A stretch of DNA of 64,000 nucleotides from Aspidapion aeneum (taxonomy: Eukaryota > Arthropoda > Insecta > Coleoptera > Brentidae). The stretch spans positions 8,712,931-8,776,930 of the forward strand of contig OY755047.1 in assembly GCA_963576565.1 (NCBI GenBank), in the 5' to 3' direction. Numbering within the stretch: position 1 is the stretch's first letter; each line of letters starts with the position of its first letter. Of the stretch, positions 7,112 through 51,765 are shown piece after piece. The notes under the pieces are model-generated. The model was not told the origin of the DNA. It ran no database searches and saw nothing but the letters and a program-made list of their open reading frames with translations. The translations under genes were made by a program, and so were the position numbers.

Positions 7112-7293
7112 ATGTCCTATAAGTAGTGTGTAATGCCTCAGTGTTTGAATACTACCATAAAAACACCTGAAAAACTATTTATTCATGTGCCTACAGTAGT
7201 AAAAGAACTGAAAAAGTGGCTAGAACTTGCTCGAAGAGACCCAAGGGCCTTATCTAATACATCTTCACTATACATTTGTGAAGATCACTTTGA
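7112..7293 (+). pseudogene. THAP zinc-finger first exon, broken
   Basis: The THAP domain is a C2CH DNA-binding finger used by P-element-like and other transposases and by host proteins derived from them. Starting at ATG 7112 the frame reads MSYK, a TAG stop, then CVMPQC, so the first cysteine pair is present but sits after the stop. Next come a TTPEKLF-like proline/phenylalanine stretch, KKWLELARRDPRA, and the C..H pair in YICEDHFD. The exon ends at GAT followed by GTGAGT, a good donor, with a possible acceptor TATTTTTAG near 7362. A methionine at 7133 would skip the stop but would lose the first cysteine. Confidence 0.7.
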
Positions 7294-7702
7294 TGTGAGT
7301 ATAACTAAATTGTTTCTATTCATTTTTCTCACGTTGTCTATAATATATATAACTATTTTTAGGCGGTACTGGGCAGTTATTAGGCAGGACTAGGGAGTAC
7401 CTCTAAATGCAGGACTGAGCAATGCATATGCAAGACTAGGAAGTGCATATTTGTTATGAAAGGCCATAAGAATTCTTTGAAACAAACTGTATTTAGAAAA
7501 TTTTGTTTTAAAAAAGCAATTTTTGATTGTTAATGCTTAAAATAATGATGATTGGGTATTTAATTGAATCTATTGCAAGTGGCATATTAAACAAAAAAGC
7601 AAAACATTCAACCTAACCTCAAAATCTAAATGAGTAAAAGTAGGCGAAAAATATCGCAAAAAAACTTTCAGTTATATACAAAACAACTCATCGAATACTT
7701 AC

Positions 7703-14887: not shown

Positions 14888-15292
14888 GCAAACTGAACCC
14901 ATCCGTATCGAAATGAACCAAATCAAACCGAATCTAACGGTTCGGTTTGGTTCGGTTCGATTTGCTTAAACTGAACCGAACCTAACCGAATATAGCTAAA
15001 CCTAACCTAAACAATCCTAGCGGAACCTAACCGAACATACTCAAACTGAACCAACCTAACCCAACCTAACCCAACCTAACCCAACCTAACCCAACCTAAC
15101 CCAACCTAACCCAACCTAACCCAACCTAACCCAACCTAACCCAACCTAACCCAACCTAACCCAACCTAACCCAACCTAACCCAACCTAACCCAACCTAAC
15201 CCAACCTAACCCAACCTAACCCAACCTAACCCAACCTAACCCAACCTAACCCAACCTAACCCAACCTAACCCAACCTAACCAAACCTAACCT
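14888..15292. repeat. Interstitial telomere-like decamer array (CCAACCTAAC)n
   Basis: Twenty-three consecutive perfect CCAACCTAAC units fill 15051-15280, followed by one variant CAAACCTAAC. The left 160 bp (14888-15050) are degenerate relatives such as GAACCTAACCGAA. Read on the other strand the unit is TTAGG plus TTGGG, the insect telomere pentamer joined to a variant. With unique sequence on both sides this is interstitial, not a chromosome end. Confidence 0.9.
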
Positions 15293-16740: not shown

Positions 16741-17453
16741 TTTTTTCTATAAGCCTGCGGAAAAATCCACTTTTCCGCACGCATTTTAGTGTGGAAAGTC
16801 ACTAGTGCGGAAAAGTACATTTGTTACGATTTTGAGGTGTTCTATAACATTTAGATCGTTCAAAATACATTTGTTTCTTTCCTAGCACACGAAATATCCT
16901 AAAAATATTCAAATTGACTAAAATTCTGCTATATTTTCAATATTTTCGATAAAATAAAGTGTTCAGTAAAATAGGTTCAAATTATAAGTTTTAAACCTCC
17001 CCGGTATAAATATCGTCATTGTCAATGTCAAACAACAATGAACACTAGTGGTTTTAGATTTGGCATCTTAAATCACCATAGCAACAAAGTACAAACAAAC
17101 TGTCAAAACAAAGCCAATTTTGCAGATACAAGCGTCTTTTGAATTTTTCAAACAAAAAAATCAGATTTTCAATGGATTCTTCGGACGAAGATCTACCCCA
17201 GTCAGTTCTAGAAGCCGCTAGAATGTGAATAATAATAATTGATTTGATTAAAACGTTTTGAATATAAATAATTTTCTGATTAATTTTTAGTTTTTTCCTC
17301 ACGCTTATAGAAAAAATAGTGTACCTAACTCGTGCGTAAAGTGTCTTTTCCGCACTTGATTGCTGGCCAAACTCCGCTATCGCGTCGTTTGGCCATCTGC
17401 AATCGCGTGCGGAAAAGAGGCACTTTTCGCACTAGTTAGGTAAACTACTATTT
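16741..17453 (+). mobile_element. Recombinase-type MITE (YR-MITE), single copy 1
   Basis: Same family as the array at 21228-23394 (there reversed) and 26121-26872. Order on the plus strand: TTTTTTCTATAAG start; GTGCGGAAA/TTTCCGCAC sites (16755-16820); ~350 bp AT-rich; ATG 17172 opening MDSSDEDLPQSVLEAARM with a stop; a possible intron (GTGAAT at 17225 to TTTTTAG at 17290); then a ~115-bp hairpin (17325-17440) with TGGCCAAAC/GTTTGGCCA inside and GTGCGGAAA arms outside; end AAACTACTATTT. No terminal inverted repeats between the two ends. The flanks contribute six T and three T. Confidence 0.75.
17172..17228 (+). pseudogene. Residual first exon of the YR-MITE
   Basis: Eighteen codons, MDSSDEDLPQSVLEAARM, then TGA. 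The same exon is present in all five copies. From memory it resembles the acidic N-terminus of insect Crypton-like tyrosine recombinases that continue LLPEKSK... It is too short for certainty. An alternative donor at 17225 would splice before the stop, to an acceptor at 17290 beyond which the gene is deleted. Confidence 0.45.
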
Positions 17454-20592: not shown

Positions 20593-21048
20593 TTTTTTGA
20601 AACCAACAGAAACAACTACTTCGAGGGAAAATACCCCTACCGGCATTGAATTATACTGATGGCTTGATGCTTTCGTTAGGAACTTGTTAAAACTGTTTGG
20701 TTTTCACTATCTCCAACGTCGATCACAGGGATACGAGTGATCCCCGTCTGGAACACGTCCTGATAGTCAGGAACAAGTGATCCATGCCAATCTACGACCG
20801 GACCGGTTTCGACCTTTTGGGCCATCCTCAGGTGAATGTAGGCGATAGCTCCGTGTAGAGCATAAGTTGAGATAGTGAAAACCAAACAGTTTTAACAAGT
20901 TCCCAACGAAAGCATCAAGCCATCAGTATAATTCAATGCCGGTAGGGGTATTTTCCCTCGGAGTAGTTGTTTCTGTTGGTTTCAAAAAACTTATGCTCTA
21001 CACGGAGCTATCGCCTACATTCACCTGAGGATGGCCCAAAAGGTCGAA
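20593..21048. mobile_element. Inverted hammerhead-like repeat, left part (continues at 24064)
   Basis: About 118-bp inverted arms (20593-20708, 20870-20986) surround a ~160-bp unit. A second, opposite copy of that unit starts at 20986, reads to GGTCGA at 21048, and resumes with AACCGG at 24064. Inverted and partly tandem units carrying a hammerhead-like core are typical of Penelope-like elements and retrozymes. That assignment is inferred. Confidence 0.55.
20790..20837 (-). ncRNA. Degenerate hammerhead ribozyme-like motif
   Basis: On the minus strand: ATTCAC, then the core CTGAGGA, a bulged T, GGCC-CAAAA-GGTC as helix II, GAAAC, a 3-bp helix III (ACC/GGT), and GGTC at the cleavage position followed by GTAGAT. 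The copy at 24064 has GTGGAT, which pairs fully with ATTCAC as helix I (one wobble). The bulge in helix II and one mismatch here make activity doubtful. Confidence 0.4.
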
Positions 21049-21227
21049 TATCATTTTGGGGATCGACCAACAAATTTCTTTTAAAAACTCTTTTTATTTT
21101 GCAAAAAAAGGCAGTGTGATTCATCTACAAAGTACACCAAAGAGATAGTTGTAGACCACATTTTAAATCAGAGAAAATTCTAACCATGACATCTTTGTAC
21201 ATCCTGGAAATATGTACATTAATTTAT

Positions 21228-21957
21228 AAATAGTAGTTTACCTAACTAGTGCGGAAAGTGCCTCTTTTCCGCACGCGATTGCAGATGGCCAAACGACGCG
21301 ATAGCGGAGTTTGGCCAGCAATCAAGTGCGGAAAAGACACTTTACGCACGAGTTAAGTACACTATTTTTTCTATAAGCGTGAGGAAAAAACTAAAAATTA
21401 ATCAGAAAATTATTTATATTCAAAACGTTTTAATCAAATCAATTATTATTATTCACATTCTAGCGGCTTCTAGAACTGACTGGGGTAGATCTTCGTCCGA
21501 AGAATCCATTGAAAATCTGATTTTTTTGTTTGAAAAATTCAAAAGACGCTTGTATCTGCAAAATTGGCTTTGTTTTGACAGTTTGTTTGTACTTTGTTGC
21601 TATGGTGATTTAAGATGCCAAATCTAAAACCACTAGTGTTCATTGTTGTTTGACATTGACAATGACGATATTTATACTGGGGAGGTTTAAAACTTATAAT
21701 TTGAACCTATTTTACTGAAAACTTTATTTTATCGAAAATATTGAAAATATAGCAGAATTTTAGTCAATTTGAATATTTTTAGGATATTTCGTGTGCTAGG
21801 AAAGATACAAATGTATTTTGAACGGTCTAAATGTTATAGAACACCTCAAAATCGTAACAAATTTACTTAATATTTTTCCGCACTAGTGCGGAAAAGTGGC
21901 ACTTTTTACACTAAAATGCGTGCGGAAAAGTGGACATGGACGCACGCTTATAGAAAA
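21228..21957 (-). mobile_element. YR-MITE array, unit 1
   Basis: Reversed relative to the copy at 16741. It begins AAATAGTAGTTTACC, followed by the ~115-bp hairpin (21238-21357), the residual exon on the minus strand (ATG near 21500), and GTGCGGAAA-type sites (21885-21950). It joins the next unit as TATAGAAAATAGTAG. Its left hairpin still has the full TTTCCGCACGC, which units 2 and 3 have lost. Confidence 0.85.
21249..21274. promoter_or_regulatory. Candidate tyrosine-recombinase core site, array left end
   Basis: GTGCGGAAA, spacer GTGCCTCT, TTTCCGCAC: perfect 9-bp inverted arms with an 8-bp spacer. This is the geometry of lox/FRT-type sites, although those have longer arms. It forms the outer arm of the end hairpin. 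Confidence 0.45.
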
Positions 21958-22679
21958 TAGTAGTTTACCTAACTAGTGCGGAAAGTGCCTCTTTTGGCGA
22001 TTGCAGATGGCCAAACGACGCGATAGCGGAGTTTGGCCAGCAATCAAGTGCGGAAAAGACACTTTACGCACGAGTTAGGTACACTATTTTTTCTATAAGC
22101 GTGAGGAAAAAACTAAAAATTAATCAGAAAATTATTTATATTCAAAACGTTTTAATCAAATCAATTATTATTATTCACATTCTAGCGGCTTCTAGAACTG
22201 ACTGGGGTAGATCTTCGTCCGAAGAATCCATTGAAAATCTGATTTTTTTGTTTGAAAAATTCAAAAGACGCTTGTTTCTGCAAAATTGGCTTTGTTTTGA
22301 CAGTTTGTTTGTACTTTGTTGCTATGGTGATTTAAGATGCCAAATCTAAAACCACTAGTGTTCATTGTTGTTTGACATTGACAATGACGATATTTATACT
22401 GGGGAGGTTTAAAACTTATAATTTGAACCTATTTTACTGAAAACTTTATTTTATCGAAAATATTGAAAATATAGCAGAATTTTAGTCAATTTGAATATTT
22501 TTAGGATATTTCGTGTGCTAGGAAAGATACAAATGTATTTTGAACGGTCTAAATGTTATAGAACACCTCAAAATCGTAACAAATTTACTTAATATTTTTC
22601 CGCACTAGTGCGGAAAAGTGGCACTTTTTACACTAAAATGCGTGCGGAAAAGTGGACATGGACGCACGCTTATAGAAAA
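21958..22679 (-). mobile_element. YR-MITE array, unit 2
   Basis: Starts 722 bp after the equivalent point of unit 1 and is nearly identical to it. It differs in the shortened hairpin arm (CTCTTTTGGCGATTGC). Its right end, AAGTGGACATGGACGCACGC, matches that of unit 1 and not that of unit 3. Confidence 0.85.
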
Positions 22680-23320
22680 TAGTAGTTTACCTAACTAGTG
22701 CGGAAAGTGCCTCTTTTGGCGATTGCAGATGGCCAAACGACGCGATAGCGGAGTTTGGCCAGCAATCAAGTGCGGAAAAGACACTTTACGCACGAGTTAG
22801 GTACACTATTTTTTCTATAAGCGTGAGGAAAAAACTAAAAATTAATCAGAAAATTATTTATATTCAAAACGTTTTAATCAAATCAATTATTATTATTCAC
22901 ATTCTAGCGGCTTCTAGAACTGACTGGGGTAGATCTTCGTCCGAAGAATCCATTGAAAATCTGATTTTTTTGTTTGAAAAATTCAAAAGACGCTTGTTTC
23001 TGCAAAATTGGCTTTGTTTTGACAGTTTGTTTGTACTTTGTTGCTATGGTGATTTAAGATGCCAAATCTAAAACCACTAGTGTTCATTGTTGTTTGACAT
23101 TGACAATGACGATATTTATACTGGGGAGGTTTAAAACTTATAATTTGAACCTATTTTACTGAAAACTTTATTTTATCGAAAATATTGAAAATATAGCAGA
23201 ATTTTAGTCAATTTGAATATTTTTAGGATATTTCGTGTGCTAGGAAAGATACAAATGTATTTTGAACGGTCTAAATGTTATAGAACACCTCAAAATCGTA
23301 ACAAATTTACTTCCGCACTA

Positions 23321-23346
23321 GTGCGGAAAAGTGGCACTTTCCACAC
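23321..23346. promoter_or_regulatory. Candidate recombinase core site, array right end, inner
   Basis: GTGCGGAAA, spacer AGTGGCAC, TTTCCACAC: one arm mismatch, same 9-8-9 geometry. Confidence 0.4.
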
Positions 23347-23354
23347 TAAAATGC

Positions 23355-23380
23355 GTGCGGAAAAGTGGACTTTTCCGCAC
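23355..23380. promoter_or_regulatory. Candidate recombinase core site, array right end, outer
   Basis: GTGCGGAAA, spacer AGTGGACT, TTTCCGCAC: perfect 9-8-9 geometry, 14 bp from the array boundary. Confidence 0.45.
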
Positions 23381-24063
23381 GCTTATAGAAAAAACAATTA
23401 TAACATTGCTGCTGGAAATGGAGTACCGCTACATGATACCCGCCATGCTGGTGATTTGCCCTTGCCAATTCCAAGATCAAATCTAACTAAGTCTTCCCTC
23501 ATCTATGAAGGGAAATTTTTTTTAAATTCGTTGTCGCGTAGATTAAAATCATTACAAACAATTAGGTTATTTAGAAAGACTCTTAAAAGCATTTTAGTAG
23601 AGAAAGCATACTATGATTTGGCTGAATTTTATAATGACTCACCAGTTTAAATGTTCCTATTTCTTCTTTTTTGTTCCTTTTTTTCAGTAAATTTTAAATT
23701 AAGTAAGATATTATATTTGTATTTTTTATCTAGTTTTTTATATACCAATGTGTGTCGTTTTTATTTATTTATGTTAAAATTTTTTGTCTACATCTGTCTG
23801 TTTTTTAAGTATGTTTACTGTGTCTTTTATACCATGTTGACCATTTTAATCTTTTAATTTTAAGCTATAAACGATTTTAAACTATTAAGTAAGAAGTGTA
23901 CATTTTAATTACTTTGACTTTAATAGGTAAATTTTATATATTTTTATAATATTGTTTTTTGTAGCCTTATTAATCAATTTATTTATAAGTAGTTTTTTAG
24001 CAGGCTTTGTCTTTGTGAAACAGTTTTCTTTTATGACAATAAAGCATTTTTGATTGATTGATT

Positions 24064-26120: not shown

Positions 26121-26872
26121 TTTTTTCTATAAGCGTGCGGAAAAGTCTACTTTTCCGCACGCATTTTAGTGTGGAAAGTGCCACTTTTCCGCACTAGTGC
26201 GGAAAAATATTTTTTCCGCACTAGTGCGGAAAAGTAAATTTGTTACGATTTTGAGGTGTTCTATAACATTTAGACCGTTCAAAATACATTTGTATCTTTC
26301 CTAGCACACGAAATATCCTAAAAATATTCAAATTGACTAAAGTTCTGCTATATTTTCAATATTTTCGATAAAATAAAGTTTTCAGTAAAATAGGTTCAAA
26401 TTATAAGTTTTAAACCTCCCCGGTATAAATATCGTCATTGTCAATGTCAAACAACAATGAACACTAGTGGTTTTAGATTTGGCATCTTAAATCACCATAG
26501 CAACAAAGTACAAACAAACTGTCAAAACAAAGCCAATTTTGCAGATACAAGCGTCTTTTGAATTTTTCAAACAAAAAAATCAGATTTTCAATGGATTCTT
26601 CGGACGAAGATCTACCCCAGTCAGTTCTAGAAGCCGCTAGAATGTGAATAATAATAATTGATTTGATTAAAACGTTTTGAATATAAATAATTTTCTGATT
26701 AATTTTTAGTTTTTTCCTCACGCTTATAGAAAAAATAGTGTACCTAACTCGTGCGTAAAGTGTCTTTTCCGCACTTGATTGCTGGCCAAACTCCGCTATC
26801 GCGTCGTTTGGCCATCTACAATCGCGTGCGGAAAAGAGGCACTTTTCGCACTAGTTAGGTAAACTACTGTTA
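26121..26872 (+). mobile_element. Recombinase-type MITE (YR-MITE), single copy 2
   Basis: As at 16741 but with an extra pair of GCACTAGTGC palindromes (26190-26235). GTGCGGAAA-AGTCTACT-TTTCCGCAC near its start again has 9-8-9 geometry. Residual exon ATG at 26591. Flanks: six T at the left, GTT at the right. Confidence 0.75.
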
Positions 26873-31215: not shown

Positions 31216-34200
31216 AAATGTAGGCGTTTAGTTAATTAATATGAACTAGAATGCTATAAATCAACTCTTATTCTATGATCCGACTCGAAGGACCAAGGTA
31301 TGACTTGTTGGTCCTTCGAGCTGGATTTTTTTCAATTCTCGTTTATTATGCTTTCTTTTGCTTTAATAAGTGTGACTATTTAATTAAAATATCTGTAGGT
31401 GATTTAGCAATTTAGTCTTGATAACAAAATAATTATGGATCGTTATGAAAACACTGATAACGGATCTGATAAAAGCGTCAAACAAAACCGGATAAATCTT
31501 GTATAGTCGCTGTTTTAATCCAAAATAATAGTCTATTCTTTATTTTTAATCATGCTAAAAAGGTAAACATGATAACAATTTTGCTTTATAATATTTTATC
31601 GCGTAACAATATATCGTTTAAATCCTGAATTGTGACTGGGAAATATCAAACCCGGGCTCTGAGGGTTTTTTTAATTCACTTGGTAGGATATTCTTACGTA
31701 GTGATCAGGTTTTCGTTTCGAGTATCAGCATTATTTTAAAATGGGTTTTACAATTCGAATGATACTTAAAAACGTATTGTGGACATTTAGTTAGTTAATC
31801 AGAACTGGAATGCTATAAATCAACTCTTATTCTTTAATCCGACTCGAAGGACCAAGGTATGACTGATTGGTCCTTCGAGCTGGATTTTTTTCAATTCTCG
31901 GTTATTATGCTTTTTTTGCTTTAATACATGTAACTGTTTAATTGAAATATCTGTAAGTGATTTAGCAATTTGGTCTTGATAACAAAATAATTATGGATCG
32001 TTATGAAAACACTGATAACGGATCTGATAAAAGCGTGGAACAAAACCGGAAAAATTTGGTCTGTTGTTTTTCGATTGAGTTCGATATAAAATCTTGGCGC
32101 GAATATTAAAGATACGAGAGCGATTTTTTGCACGCTCGTAGGAAAAAAACATTTTTAGTATCCTCCGATTGCATTCCGGCAAATTTGACTATGTATGCCG
32201 AAATTGCGTCCGTATTAATAGCTAACCGTGAATAATGGAGACAGCCTGAGCACCGTAGCTGTAACTGCATGACGTCATTATGTACATACTAGATTCCTAC
32301 CATTTAACATTACAATCGACCTTATATATAGGCATTATCGACTTATTTGTGGGCGTTTAGTTAGTTAATAAGAACTGGAATACTATAAATCAACTCTTAT
32401 CCTGTTATCCGACTCGAAGGACCAAGGTTTGGCTTGTTGGTCCTTCGAGCTAGATTTTTTTTCAATTCTCGGTTATTATGTTTTTTTTTTGCTTTAATAC
32501 ATATTACTGTTTAATTAAAATATCTGTAGGTGACTTAGCAATTTGGTATTGATAACAAAATAATTATGGATCGTTATGAAAACACTGATAACGCATCTGA
32601 TAAAAGCGTGAAACAAAACTGGATAAACCTTGTGTAATCGCTGTTTTAATCCAAAATAATACAGTCTGTTGTTTATATTTAATCATGCTAAACAGATAAA
32701 CCAGATAATAATTTTGCTTTATAATGTTTTATCGTGTCACAATATATCGTTTAAATCCTAAATTTTATGACTGGCGAAAATCTATTCCGAGCTCTAAGCG
32801 TTTTTTTAATTCACTTGGCAGGATTGTTGGACGTATTGATCAGGTTTTCACGTATCAGCATTATTTTAAAATGGGTTTTACGATTCCAATGATACTTAAA
32901 AACGTATTGTGGACGTTTAGTTAGTTAATCAGAACTAGAATGCTATAAATCAATTCTGATTCTGTTATCCGACTCGAAGGACCAGGTCGATTATTATGCT
33001 TTTTTTGCTTTAGTACATGTTACTGTTTAATTGAAATATCTGTAGTGGAACAAAACCTGATAAACTTGGGGAGGCACTGTTTTAATCCAAAATAATACAG
33101 TCTGTTGTTTGTTGTTTTTTATTTTTAAGTTCGATATAAAATCGTGGCGCGATTATGAAAGATACCCGTGCGATTTTTTGCACGCTCGTAGGAAAAAACA
33201 TTTTTAGTATCCTCCGATTGCATTCCGGCAAATTTGACTATGTATGCCGAAATTGCGTCCGTATTAATAGCTAACCGTGAATAATGGAGACAGCCTGAGC
33301 ACCGTAGCTGTAACTGCATGACGTCATTATGTATATACTAGATTCCTACCAGCATGTCAATTAATTACTAATTTAACATTACAATCGACCTTATATATGT
33401 GTGGGCGTTTGTTAGTTAATAAGAACTGGAATACTATAAATCAACTCTTATCCTGTTATCCGACTCGAAGGACCAAGGTTTGGCTTGTTGGTCCTTCGAG
33501 CTGGATTTTTTTCAATTCTCGTTTATTATGATTTTTTTTGCTTTAATACGTGTTACTGATTAATTGAAATATCTGTAGGTGACTTAGCAATTTTGTAATG
33601 ATACCAAAATAATTACGGATCATTATGAAAACACTGATAACGTATCTGATAAAAGCGTGGAACAAAGCTGAATAAACCTTGTGTATTTGCTGTCTTAATT
33701 CAAAACAATATAGTCTGTTGTTTATTTTTCATGAGGCTAAAATGATAAACCAGATAACAATTTTGCTTTATAATCAACCTTATATAAGCATTATCGAGTT
33801 TTTTTGGGCATTTGGTTAGTTAATAAGAACTAGAATGCTATAAATCAATTCTTATTCTGTAATCCGACTCGAAGGACCAAGGGATGACTTATTGGTCCTT
33901 CGAGCTGGATTTTTTTCAATTCTTGGTTATTATGCTTTTTTTTGCTTTAATACATGTTACTGTTTAATTGAGGTATCTGTAGCTGACTTAGCAATTTGGT
34001 ATTGATAATAAAATAATTATGGATCGTTATGAAAACACTGATACCGGATCTGATAAAAGCGTGAAACAAAACCGGGTAAACCTTGTGTAGTCGCTGTTTT
34101 AATCGAAAATAATACAGTATGTTGTTTATTTTTAATCAGCCTAAAAAGATAAACATGATAAAAATTTTGCTTTATAATATTTTATCGTGTAACAATATAT

Positions 34201-36570
34201 CGTTTAAATCCTAAATTGTGACTGGCAATAATATAAACCATGCTCTGACCGTTTTTTTAATTCACTTGGCAAGATATTTTTTCGTAGTGATCAGGTTTTC
34301 GCGTATTAGCATTATTTTAACATGGATTTTACGATTACGATTACGATTACATGGATTTTACGATATTGTGGACGTTTCGTTAGTTAATTAGAACAGGAAT
34401 GCTATAAATCAATTCTTATTCTGTAATCCGACTCGACGGACCAAAGTATGGCTTGTTGGTCCTTCGAGCTGGATTTTTTCAATTCTCGATTATGCTTTTT
34501 TTGCTTTAGTACATGTTACTGTTTAATTGGAATATCTGTAGTGGAACAAAACCTGATAAACTTGGGGAGGCGCTGTTTTAATCCAAAATAATACAGTCTG
34601 TTGTTTGTTGTTTTTTGTTTTTAAGTTCGATATAAAATCGTGGCGCGATTATGAAAGATACCCGTGCGATTTTTTGCACGCTCGTAGGAAAAAACATTTT
34701 TAGTATCCTCCGATTGCATTCCGGCAAATTTGACTATGTATGCCGAAATTGCGTCCGTATTAATAGCTAACCGTGAATAATGGAGACAGCCTGGGCACCG
34801 TAGCTGTAACTGCATGACGTCATTATGTACATACTGGATTCCTACCAGCATGTCAATTAATTACTAATTTAACATTACAATCGACCTTATATATAGGCAT
34901 TATCGACTTATTTGTGGGCGTTTAGTTAGTTAATAAGAACTAGAATACTATAAATCAACTCTTATCCTGTTATCCGACTCGAAGGACCAAGGTTTGGCTT
35001 GTTGGTCCTTCGAGCTGGATTTTTCTTCAATTCTCGTTTATTATGCTTTTTTTTGCTTTAATACGTTGTTAATTGAAATATCTGTAGGTGACTTAGCAAT
35101 TTGGTATTGATAACAAAATAATTATGGATCGTTATGAAAACACTGATAACGCGTCTGATAAAAGCGTAAAACAAAACCGGATAAACCTTCTGTAATCGCT
35201 GTTTTAATCCGAAATAATACAGTCTGTTGTTTATTTTTAATCATGCTAAAAAGATAAACCAGATAATAATTTTGCTTTATAATATTTTATCGTGTCACAA
35301 TATATCGTTTAAATCCTGAATTTTATGATTGGCGAAAATCTATCCCGAGCTCTAAGCGTTTTTTAATTCACTTGGCAGGATTGTTTTACGTATTGATCAG
35401 GTTTTCACGTATCAGCGTTATTTTAAAATGTGTTTTACGATTCCAATGATACTTAAAAACGTATTGTGGACGTTTAGTTAGTTAATCAGAACTAGAATGC
35501 TATAAATCAATTCTGATTCTGTTATCCGACTCGAAGGACCAGGGAATGGCTTGTTGGTCCTTCGAGCTGGATATTTTCAATTCTCAATTATTATGCTTTT
35601 TTCGCTTTAGTACATGTTACTGTTTAATTGAAATATCTGTAGTGGAACAAAACCTGATAAACTTGGGAAGGCGCTGTTTTAATCCAAAATAATACAGTCT
35701 GTTGTTTGTTGTTTTTTATTTTTAAGTTCGATATAAAATCGTGGCGCGATTATGAAAGATACCCGTGCGATTTTTTGCACGCTCGTAGGAAAAAACATTT
35801 TTAGTATCCTCCGAATGCATTCCGGCAAATTTGACTATGTATGCTGAAATTGCGTCCGTATTAATAGCTAACCGTGAATAATGGAGACAGCCTGAGCACC
35901 GTAGCTGTAACTGCATGACGTCATTGTGTACATACTAGATTCCTACCAGCATGTCAATTAATTACTAATTTAACATTACAATCGACCTTATATATAGGCA
36001 TTATCGACTTATTTGTGGGCGTTTAGTTAGTTAATAAGAACTAGAATACTATAAATCAACTCTTATCCTGTTATCCGACTCGAAGGACCAAGGTTTGGCT
36101 TGTTGGTCCTTCGAGCTAGATTTTTTTTCAATTCTCGTTTATTATGCTTTTTTTGCTTTAATACGTTGTTAGTTGAAATATCTGTAGGTGACTTAGCAAT
36201 TTGGTATTGATAACAAAATAATTATGGATCGTTATGAAAACACTGATAACGCATCTGAGAAAAGCGTGAAACAAAACCGGATAAACCTTGTGTAATCGCT
36301 GTTTTAATCCAAAATAATACAGTCTGTTGTTTATATTTAATCATGCTAAACAGATAAACCAGATAATAATTTTGCTTTATAATGTTTTATCGTGTCACAA
36401 TATATCGTTTAAATCCTGAATTTTATGACTGGCGAAAATCTATCCCGAGCTCTAAGCGTTTTTTTAATTCACTTGGCAGGATTGTTTTACGTATTGATCA
36501 GGTTTTCACGTATCAGCATTATTTTAAAATGGGTTTTACGATTCCAATGATACTTAAAAACGTATCGTTT
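31216..36570. repeat. Satellite array, ten ~550-bp monomers of two types
   Basis: Monomers start with GTTTAGTTAGTTAAT at about 31226, 31786, 32347, 32908, 33405, 33808, 34377, 34919, 35472 and 36019. All share the first ~200 bp, including a hairpin CTCGAAGGACCAA / TTGGTCCTTCGAG. Type A continues GTGACTTAGCAATTTGG...AACGTATTGTGGAC. Type B continues GTTCGATATAAAATC...CATGACGTCAT...TTTGTGGGC. Order A-B-A-B-A(short)-A-B-A-B-A(short), so the basic higher-order unit is ~1.1 kb. Frames of 64-76 codons in type B are repeat by-products. Confidence 0.9.
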
Positions 36571-39440: not shown

Positions 39441-40630
39441 ACACAATTTACAAATTTACAAAATTTACAAAATTTACAAAATTTACAAAATTTACAAAAT
39501 TTACAAAATTTACAAAATTTACAAAATTTACAAAATTTACAAAATTTACAAAAAATTTACAAAATTTACAAAATTTACAAAATTTACAAAATTTACAAAA
39601 TTTACAAAATTTACAAAATTTACAAAATTTACAAAATTTACAAAATTTACAAAATTTACAAAATTTACAAAATTTACAAAATTTACAAAAAATTTACAAA
39701 ATTTACAAAATTTACAAAATTTACAAAATTTACAAAATTTACAAAATTTACAAAATTTACAAAATTTACAAAATTTACAAAATTTACAAAATTTACAAAA
39801 TTTACAAAATTTACAAAATTTACAAAATTTACAAAATTTACAAAATTTACAAAATTTACAAAATTTACAAAATTTACAAAATTTACAAAATTTACAAAAT
39901 TTACAAAATTTACAAAATTTACAAAATTTACAAAATTTACAAAATTTACAAAATTTACAAAATTTACAAAATTTACAAAATTTACAAAATTTACAAAATT
40001 TACAAAATTTACAAAATTTACAAAATTTACAAAATTTACAAAATTTACAAAATTTACAAAATTTACAAAATTTACAAAATTTACAAAATTTACAAAATTT
40101 ACAAAATTTACAAAATTTACAAAATTTACAAAATTTACAAAATTTACAAAATTTACAAAATTTACAAAATTTACAAAATTTACAAAATTTACAAAATTTA
40201 CAAAATTTACAAAATTTACAAAATTTACAAAATTTACAAAATTTACAAAATTTACAAAATTTACAAAAAATTTACAAAATTTACAAAATTTACAAAATTT
40301 ACAAAATTTACAAAATTTACAAAATTTACAAAATTTACAAAATTTACAAAATTTACAAAATTTACAAAATTTACAAAATTTACAAAATTTACAAAATTTA
40401 CAAAATTTACAAAATTTACAAAATTTACAAAATTTACAAAATTTACAAAATTTACAAAATTTACAAAATTTACAAAATTTACAAAATTTACAAAATTTAC
40501 AAAATTTACAAAATTTACAAAATTTACAAAATTTACAAAATTTACAAAATTTACAAAATTTACAAAATTTACAAAATTTACAAAATTTACAAAATTTACA
40601 AAATTTACAAAATTTACAAAATAGACAAAA
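39441..40630. repeat. Nonamer microsatellite (TTTACAAAA)n, ~130 units
   Basis: Almost perfect for 1.18 kb. Three interruptions add two A (near 39550, 39687 and 40266); the last unit reads ATAGACAAAA. Confidence 0.95.
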
Positions 40631-40663
40631 TTACAAAAAAAAATTCAAGTACGGTGTCATCAC

Positions 40664-49410: not shown

Positions 49411-49765
49411 GTACTAGATACGAATATTAAAATAATTGTAATTCTGTTTCTTTGTGTAAAATCTCAGCCCGAAATTCGCAATAAGAAATATGAATATCAT
49501 TGTGTAGTGCAACGTGAGCGAGAGAGACAACAATATTCGACACGCCTCGAGTTAGAACGAGAGGAACGACTAAAGGTTAGTACGAGTCCATGCACTTAAC
49601 GGTTACTGGTTATCCGTTAAGACGGTTTTTATATATTGCCGAGGAAATTAAAGGTACGAAAAAAAATCACGATTTTTTTTTAATTGAATATTTATCGGTA
49701 TGTAATGATTTATAACATTGTTAACAGTATCTGGTTTATTAAAAAAACTTCTTTTTTGCAATTCA
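49411..49765. other. Unassigned stretch
   Basis: Includes a short direct-looking GAGCGAGAGAGACAAC segment; no gene recognised. Confidence 0.3.
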
Positions 49766-49983
49766 GGGACTAAACACGCATTTTAGTCCCTCATTTTAGG
49801 GACTAAAATACTACTTTTTATCCCGGGGACTAAAATATTTTACTCCCGGGGACTAAAATATTTTAGTCCCTGGACCCGAATTCATGGTTTTTCAAATTTT
49901 GTATTTTTGTATTTGGGAGCATCTAAAAATAGGCCTATACACTATCAAAATAAACTACCTAGCCTAATCTATACATTCCTACG

Positions 49984-51296
49984 TTATTTGACATTATTAT
50001 TGTTTGTTATATTGATATTCAAAATAGCGCCGCTACAGCCAACTAAATGAATCAATGATCGTGGATCTGAATCGATTTCGCTTCGCTGTTGGTTGAGGTT
50101 GATGTTTTGCAGTGGAGATCCGAAAATTGCTGGTTCGGTGTGATCAGTGCTGCTGTCTTCGTTGATTGTGGGTTCTGGAAAATTGCATACTGCTACGGTA
50201 CGTGATTGGCCTTGGCTTTTATGACTCTTGACATCTGTCCTCAAGTTTTGACTGAATATTTTATCTGCCACATTTTTTTTGTTTTCGATTGATTGCTCAA
50301 CATACCCTTCAGCAACGGTAGCACTTTTCCAACCACCGTGTCTTTTGAGCTGGTCAATATTCGCTCCAGAATCTGCTAAAAGGAAGCAGAGGTACGCCTG
50401 AAGCAGTGTCCTGTGTATGAAACGGCCTCTGGCAGGTTCAGGAAGGCAGCTATTTTTCGCGGGAAAAGCCCAAAAGTATTCTTTCCAACAGGTTGTGATA
50501 AACATTTGCCGTCTTTATAGCCAATGAAATATCTCGATATTGTCAAATTTGTTGGTCTCAGAGCCATGTAGGATTTACAGATTTTCACTACGTCTGTAGC
50601 GTTGCTTTCTTTTGGAGTTCTTCACTATGAAGCATCGGTCAGTTTGATTTTTCGTGTTTCGAACTGTGACAACAAGATGAAAATCTTGGACTTGAACATC
50701 TTCATTCTGTAGCTGGCACAGTTTAACACCCCTGCATGCACCGGCAACTCCCATTATCAACGCCACCTGGAAAAAAAAGATTTTTCAGTTACTAAGTAGC
50801 AATACAATTTTTTGTACAAACTACGTAACCTGATAGCAACAAATGATATTTCGAATCAGTGACCTTAACATGGTTCAAAATAATATAAAAACAGTTCACT
50901 TTACCTTGATCATCAAATATTCTTGATTTGGTGCTTCCTGGAGGAACTGCTGGATATGATCCATGTCCAGTATTCGAGACTTCTTTGGGCGGTAGCCATC
51001 CCCATTTCTTTTCAAAAATGCCTTCAATTGTGAATATTTTCAATGTCCAAACTTTTTTCAACGATCATCTTTGATTTAATCATTGAATAATGTGACTAAA
51101 CCGTTGAAGCCTTCAAATTTTTCGCATGATGGAAGAAATATGCAAGAAGTACCTTCTCCTGTGTAACATCAGCAAGATCCTTAGCTTGACACCAATCCAG
51201 GAAATGTTTGTATTGTTTTTCATATATTTTCTCCGATTTAGCGGGCCGCAGTGCCTTCACTGCCTCTGCGGCAGCTGTATCAATATCAATATCCAT
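49984..51296 (-). pseudogene. Crypton-like tyrosine recombinase, inactivated
   Basis: Minus strand: MDIDIDTAAAEAVKALRP, KIYEKQYKHFLDWCQAKD, EKVLLAYFFHHAKNLKASTV (core-binding domain), then a stop replacing the tryptophan expected before SHYSM; a one-base shift near 51020; PKKSRILDMDHIQQFLQEAP; an intron (50767-50904, GTAAAG...TTCCAG); VALIMGVAGACRG with catalytic arginine I; a shift near 50600; YTGHCFRRTSASF (H-x-x-R); a shift near 50393; LKRHGGWKSATVAEGYVE (H/W box and tyrosine nucleophile). So R, H-x-x-R, H/W and Y are all still readable, but one stop and at least three shifts break the frame. Related to KIAA1958/ZMYM-type recombinase proteins. Confidence 0.85.
50767..50904 (-). other. Intron in the recombinase pseudogene
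   Basis: GTAAAG donor (50904) and TTTTTTTTCCAG acceptor (50767), 138 bp. Joining gives NQEYLMIK then VALIMGVAG in phase. Confidence 0.75.
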
Positions 51297-51765
51297 TTTT
51301 TTACTTTTGGGAACGCACTAGCAAATCGCAGAAATCTCCACGGCGTTGTTTGTATTTTACAGTTATTTTATGGTACCTTGACAACACCCTGACAACCAAG
51401 TATTATCCAAGGCTATCTAAGAAATATCAACTGATTTAACGTCAGAGAATGAATGGTACTTTATTGGTTGTCACATTTTATAGGCCAATTAGTGCAGTGG
51501 AGATGACTTTCTTTTCGAAAATTTAATTAAAAATTTGAATGAAACTATGCCCAGAATTGCAAAAAATAGTATATATACCACTTGACTAAAGTGTCTTTTT
51601 ATCCCTCAGCGAATTATAGCCCTCCCTGTGGTCGGGCTACAAACATTTCGCCTCGGGATAAAAAGTATCACTTTAGTCCCTGGGTATATATTGTATATTA
51701 TTTTATTTTGACCTCTTTCTAGCCTGTCCTTTTTTGTCCTAATAGTTTTTTCTCAAAGTTCTTAC

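Follow-up and report, generated by a model that had tools for sequence, protein, structure and literature searches.

Positions 21231–23392 of a 64,000-nucleotide stretch of contig OY755047.1 from the beetle Aspidapion aeneum (assembly GCA_963576565.1; the whole stretch is called the window below, its base composition being 66% A+T) hold three units of a short mobile element arranged head-to-tail on the forward strand, each 713–727 bp long. Unit 1 (21231–21957, 727 bp) runs from TAGTAG to TATAGAAAA and is followed by unit 2 (21958–22679, 722 bp) and unit 3 (22680–23392, 713 bp), with both internal junctions (21949–21963 and 22671–22685, forward strand) reading TATAG-AAAA-TAGTAG. A first-pass annotation, made from the sequence alone, had described a three-copy array of a miniature inverted-repeat transposable element (MITE) with this junction, and both the array and the junction were borne out. 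MITE is retained here as a label for the family, although its affiliation is revised below.

The array interrupts a repeat resembling a long interspersed nuclear element (LINE), the left part of which (21048–21230, forward strand, left border unmapped) stops at the insertion point 21230/21231, and the right part of which occupies 23393–23650 on the same strand. The flanks are TTTATAAA on the left and AAAAAACAATTAT on the right, as had been claimed, and an open frame runs on across the predicted join (IYK followed by NNYN), which can be read directly from the sequence. The LINE identity of the repeat is unconfirmed, its tail giving no Pfam match and the joined tail no protein homologue. Just left of it lies an inverted repeat whose two 61-bp arms match perfectly and are separated by 119 bp (20808–21048).

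Each unit opens with a long hairpin and closes with further hairpins followed by TATAGAAAA (the 3' end was folded in unit 3). The 5' terminal hairpin of unit 1 spans about 130 nt (21234–21364, forward strand), and the segment containing it (21225–21400) folds, as DNA, at -53 kcal/mol (z -13). The 3' terminal hairpins of unit 3 (23311–23386, forward strand) carry GTGCGGAAAAG-type motifs in both orientations, directly ahead of the A-run. A search for RNA families returned 11 matches, none of them at the gathering score and several being microRNA models on hairpins. Two single copies of the element are present on the reverse strand (16743–17450 and 26123–26869), each with TATAG and six A's at its right end; these are six T's on the forward strand, in agreement with the T-runs reported for both. 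In the copy at 26123–26869 a C replaces the first T of TAGTAG.

The annotation had also predicted the empty site, with no bases gained or lost. To look for it, the left flank was joined to the right flank from 23393 and this 298-nt query was searched in the same genome (1.29 Gb). Half of the 40 scored matches (n = 20) span the array site at 93–99% identity, four of them over 298/298 positions with no change in length (96–99%). Fifteen of the spanning matches were read at the site itself, and 14 of these paralogous empty copies carry the predicted TATAAAAACA, with TATAAAAACAAT to the letter in nine; the remaining empty sites read TATAAAAACAGT in five of the 15 (equal length, one substitution) and TATAAAAAATGT in one. 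As the unoccupied copies of the repeat match the predicted join, no base was gained or lost at the array.

Other insertions were compared with empty paralogues, both in the MITE family and in a second tyrosine-recombinase family of this genome, described below. MITE copy L002 differed in total length from six paralogues by a single A within a run. Of the second-family copies, L058 kept the length of its empty paralogues with one substitution, L032 is as long as the one paralogue available for it, substitutions apart, and the empty site of L044 fits given one base substitution. Among 27 MITE and 27 second-family insertions, with the unit end fixed at AAAA, no mixed-sequence duplication of two or three bases was detected; there were two coincidences, one of four and one of five bases. 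The consistent target duplications that the annotation had named as evidence against its reading were thus not seen, nor was a target-site duplication of fixed length, as found with classical MITEs of DDE transposons. Insertion without target duplication, as in Cryptons, describes these data, although an overlap of one or two A's is still possible and is indistinguishable from none because the joint sits within an A-run.

For counts of target bases, units were taken to extend from TAGTAG to TATAGAAAA in the MITE family and from TAGTAC to GCAAAA in the second family. In the MITE table, 27 of 32 places were counted (the two window singles and 30 loci, less L001 and L004, which are in the array of L005, L030, a duplicate of L024, and L018 and L025, which contain nested or inverted copies). 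For the second family, 27 of 31 places were counted (30 loci and the window copy), dropping L042 and L057 (5' end unrecognisable), L056 and the window copy (5' end altered). Outer sites of arrays were used in 20 of 30 cases, the others being the window array (counted as L005), L090 (right end AAAT) and eight with the leftmost unit unrecognised. At 72 of the resulting 74 outer sites an A stands on both sides of the joint (A|A), against 8.3 expected from base composition; AA flanks the joint on both sides at 54/74, and position +7 is a T at 69/74. The target is therefore AA|AAT followed by a T-run (AA|AA T..TTTT).

A full-length partner of the MITE, L108, was found by a generic junction search, which gave 65 matches (54 of the known type, two of a variant, and nine single insertions or chance; reversed control, one). 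The variant junction occurs at two places 1.8 kb apart, and the unit between them is 1807 bp long with the MITE's own ends, reading TATAGAAAA|TAGTAG at both borders, beyond which some 40–50 bases of adjacent units were read. MITE copy L010 corresponds to the L108 unit minus one 1102-bp segment and is otherwise 98.4% identical over 705 aligned bases, with one further 37-bp difference; the MITE retains the first 17 codons of the recombinase gene. On the strand opposite to the unit, L108 has one long open frame of 420 residues, which matches Phage_integrase at 41.1 bits (cut-off 27.1). Residues R150, H256, R259 and Y291 (numbering of a 391-residue stretch) align with relatives of the protein, and we take these to be the catalytic set of the tyrosine recombinase family. 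The predicted product is an R-H-R-Y tyrosine recombinase, as encoded by Cryptons, with catalytic residues assigned by motif; neither a reverse transcriptase nor a DDE transposase accompanies it, the recombinase being the only open frame longer than 90 residues in the one L108 unit examined. The database search gave 327 relatives, and the named ones among the 120 listed are almost all insects, including longhorn and other beetles, fireflies, wasps, ants, a moth, a cockroach and a mosquito; one listed relative is labelled as a bacterial metagenome bin.

The label MITE did not survive this comparison, as the element in the window is a deletion derivative of a Crypton-like element and not a classical MITE. 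Judged by the features of the element rather than by a tree, the heading that suits it best is probably that of a Crypton-like transposon, for which the ends, the target and the integron-like arrays are newly defined here. A rolling-circle element of the Helitron or Helentron type was also considered, as 3' terminal hairpins, insertion free of target-site duplication and tandem arrays are typical there too. That reading was discarded and retains next to no probability, since L108, with the same ends, has a predicted tyrosine recombinase as its one long frame and no Rep or helicase match.

The 18-base 3' end of the MITE family has 1541 exact matches in the genome. With a pattern allowing up to four extra bases, 59 head-to-tail junctions were found at 48 places. 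The spacer is AAAA in 54 of these (CTTATAG-AAAA-TAGTAGTTTAC, 46 places) and AAAAA in five, at two more places, with four in one array; no junction with another spacer was detected within the four extra bases allowed, and the reversed control gave none. As a rough estimate, 1541 random insertions on AAAA....TT sites would produce about one chance array (0.7), compared with 48. Thirty arrays were read (29 fetched and the window array), and in 23 of these two or more units were recognised. Their outer ends resemble those of single copies, and the 22 readable outer left flanks are all distinct over 12 bases.

Head-to-tail order and near-identical junctions would also result if a multimeric circle (a trimer here), or a concatemer made from one copy by rolling-circle replication, had been integrated in one step. 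Two arrays resemble such a product: in L083 two units are identical (0 differences) while a third shows two differences, and L092 has five units with all four junctions AAAAA rather than AAAA, which suggests local amplification of one dimer. However, adjacent units differ in 27 of 28 pairs, with a median of 0.97% against 1.29% for 3451 random pairs, and 11 of the 25 adjacent pairs that could be scored (3/28 were unscorable) combine a long with a short subtype, against 12.4 expected at random. As neighbouring units are mostly different copies, with subtypes mixed as in random draws, most array growth seems to come from separate insertions, each next to a copy already in place, and not from one multimeric circle, and we consider the one-step origin unlikely.

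The trimer in the window records more of its own history. When its units were aligned with 26 other copies, all lay 0 to 2.4% from the consensus (a figure biased downward, as the aligned copies were the best-scoring ones), so that recent activity of the MITE family is probable. Units 1 and 2 have changes near the 3' end in common, as units 2 and 3 do near the 5' end, and they are missing at the opposite outer ends. Both internal junctions bear the same two lesions, neither outer end does, and the lesions are absent from the 26 other copies aligned, one of which (L021) is missing the 5' stretch. Hence, unit 1 has a normal 5' part and a lesioned 3' part, unit 3 the converse, and unit 2 is a hybrid, its 5' half resembling unit 3 and its 3' half unit 1. 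This pattern points to a third unit that would have arisen after dimer formation, by recombination inside the dimer or with a circle. One trimeric circle of a single copy, cut once, cannot yield junction lesions that are absent from both outer ends, and a one-step multimer is unlikely for this array in particular. The first event is likely to have given a dimer, and recombination between its two units or with a circle would then have produced the hybrid middle unit, through crossing over within the dimer or homologous entry of a circle bearing the lesioned junction.

Tandem duplication independent of transposition, by unequal crossing over or by slippage during replication, is the account given for coral CMITE arrays (PMC2872659). 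It would fit a middle unit that is a hybrid of its neighbours, and segmental duplication does occur in this genome: a close second-family pair (L091), tried as an array, was rejected because it is a segmental duplication, the copies of which lie about 3.4 kb from each other. In L091, however, the flanks are duplicated too, whereas the element-to-element junctions at 48 places are free of flanking DNA and would be left unexplained. Unequal crossing over furthermore requires a prior dimer, array units are mostly different copies, and the 22 distinct outer left flanks argue against descent from one ancestral dimer. We regard tandem duplication as a very improbable origin of the arrays; in the window array, unequal crossing over is a second step and not the origin.

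The second family is represented in the window by a decayed copy on the reverse strand (49754–51699), with stops, frame changes and an altered 5' end; the family's ends are TAGTAC and GAATTGCAAAA. Genome-wide there are 1681 candidates, and the 150 of these that were scored are 96–100% identical to the query at the protein level, many holding an open frame of 266 residues. Named homologues among the 120 listed are almost all insects, many of them beetles. The recombinase piece from the window gave nothing relevant against PDB sequences and no Pfam match, but the catalytic exon of a cleaner copy (L031) matched Phage_integrase at 32.9 bits. An AlphaFold model of the recombinase (mean predicted local distance difference test, pLDDT, 76.8) had Cre, XerA/XerH and the Tn1549 integrase as its best PDB matches in a fold search, with 2a3v also among the matches.

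Both families have A-run targets and similar ends. They have in common the plan of the 5' hairpin and, in the right arm of that hairpin, a stretch of 39 bases (score 38, reached by 0 of 500 shuffles), and at the 3' ends only ACTAAAATGCGT, which was reached by 0/500 shuffles of 60-base ends and 4/500 of longer ends. Their interiors show no similarity beyond chance. Each family carries eight copies of its own 10–11 base motif (at most one mismatch; MITE motifs counted in L010) and neither contains the other's. Despite the similar ends, the gene has the same orientation as the unit in the second family (L031) and the opposite one in the first (L108). Mobilisation of the MITE by the second family was considered and dropped, because the end motifs differ (GGGACTAAAA compared with the MITE's GTGCGGAAAAG) and a partner with the MITE's own ends exists.

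We therefore read the array, with a probability of roughly 0.85, as cut-down copies of a transposon with a predicted tyrosine-recombinase gene, inserted with the target bases unchanged; most probably, circles of the element entered an A-run first and the end of a resident copy later. The intermediate would be an excised circle with the closed junction AAAA|TAGTAG, which the recombinase would pair with A-runs preceding T-runs; the end of a resident element would offer a similar site, so that a second circle could enter beside the first. Integration by a tyrosine recombinase without duplication, as first proposed, is supported by the L108 frame with its MITE ends, by the empty sites and by the junction at 48 places. 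The proposal of circle integration needs one correction: the near-constant junctions support it, but a single multimeric circle does not agree with adjacent units that are mostly different copies.

A number of points weigh against this account. The circle, the excision product and recombinase activity are unobserved, the circular intermediate being one that we infer from sequence, and the circle model gives no account of the rise in copy number. A-run ends conceal the exact crossover, and the A|A count hinges on the unit end being set at AAAA. Among the empty sites, the left flank of L002 is one A shorter than in most paralogues, L032 depends on one paralogue, L044 needs its substitution, and L016, L036 and L051 are ambiguous, being too diverged. 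The junction search detects only spacers of at least four A's with intact flanking letters. Adjacent units are slightly closer than random ones (Mann-Whitney p = 0.028; pairs not independent), and local duplication made some arrays grow (L083, L092). Finally, the second family yielded neither a head-to-tail junction with AAAA as spacer (the one spacer searched for there) nor a true mixed junction; recombinases of this kind hence do not form arrays as a rule, and the first family may be special in doing so. The left end of the first family has T at +7 to +9 (TAGTAGTTT), matching the targets, and that of the second family (TAGTACATT) has A at +7; the case for these T's as the reason for first-family arrays is weakened, since L108, with its own left end (TAGTAGATT), is also arrayed.

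Further repeats are present elsewhere in the window. Around 133 copies of a 9-bp tandem unit (ACAAAATTT) at 39441–40638 are open in several frames, and a cluster of long diverged repeats occupies 31219–36568, with 82–92% identity between long matches. A THAP-domain fragment (7127–7393; Pfam, 35.7 bits) possibly derives from a DNA transposon. A decamer array of AACCCAACCT lies at 14999–15291, and we take it to resemble the insect telomere-type AACCT repeat.

In integrons, different units are joined head-to-tail at a fixed core by a tyrosine recombinase, and hairpins lie by the crossover. The arrays described here are similar in their head-to-tail order of different units, their near-constant junction and the hairpins adjoining it, and 2a3v was among the fold matches of the second family; they differ from integron cassettes in that the short form of the unit lacks a cargo gene. 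No attI-like platform turned up, although no search aimed at one was made. It is conceivable, if doubtful, that the system is an animal counterpart of the integron, in which independently drawn cassettes are strung together at a near-exact junction, the resident end acting as landing site and the hairpins as folded recombination sites.

Tn916 and Tn1549 also have a tyrosine transposase, a circular intermediate (proposed here by inference) and AT-rich insertion sites, with TTTT-n6-AAAA as the Tn1549 target consensus (PMC5871717), and the Tn1549 integrase was among the fold matches of the second family. In contrast, insertion here is into AA|AAT..TTTT, L108 has no long frame besides that of the recombinase, the host is eukaryotic, and the inserts are not accompanied by coupling sequences of 5–7 nt: the outer bases equal the empty site at the array and are within a substitution or one A of it at L002, L058, L032 and L044. 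Coral CMITEs are likewise short non-autonomous elements in tandem arrays, explained by replication slippage (PMC2872659), whereas the arrays here involve no duplication, have no DNA between units and consist mostly of different copies. Dispersed tandem repeats of the oyster are borne by non-autonomous Helentrons (PMC7492417), which are rolling-circle elements, unlike the tyrosine-recombinase elements of this study.

In features, as opposed to clade placement, the family also resembles CryptonI of insects, a DNA transposon which encodes a tyrosine recombinase and has a non-autonomous derivative, CryptonI-1N1_RPro (PMC3212892, Kojima and Jurka 2011). In that account, animal Cryptons have no reported terminal repeats and low copy numbers in most hosts; the present family differs from CryptonI as published in its TAGTA...AAAA ends, hairpins, target motif, 48 array sites and 1541 exact 3' ends. 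No description of head-to-tail arrays of Cryptons or their derivatives was found in search listings and abstract openings of open-licence papers, and a printed account may still exist. The circular intermediate of Cryptons has so far been proposed by analogy with bacterial elements (PMC3212892). This genome makes the circle model directly testable, because it supplies open recombinase frames, ends, a target motif, paralogous empty sites and 48 array places. It thereby offers a candidate pair of recombinase and site, and shows how tandem repeats can be founded by a transposon while the host DNA stays unduplicated.
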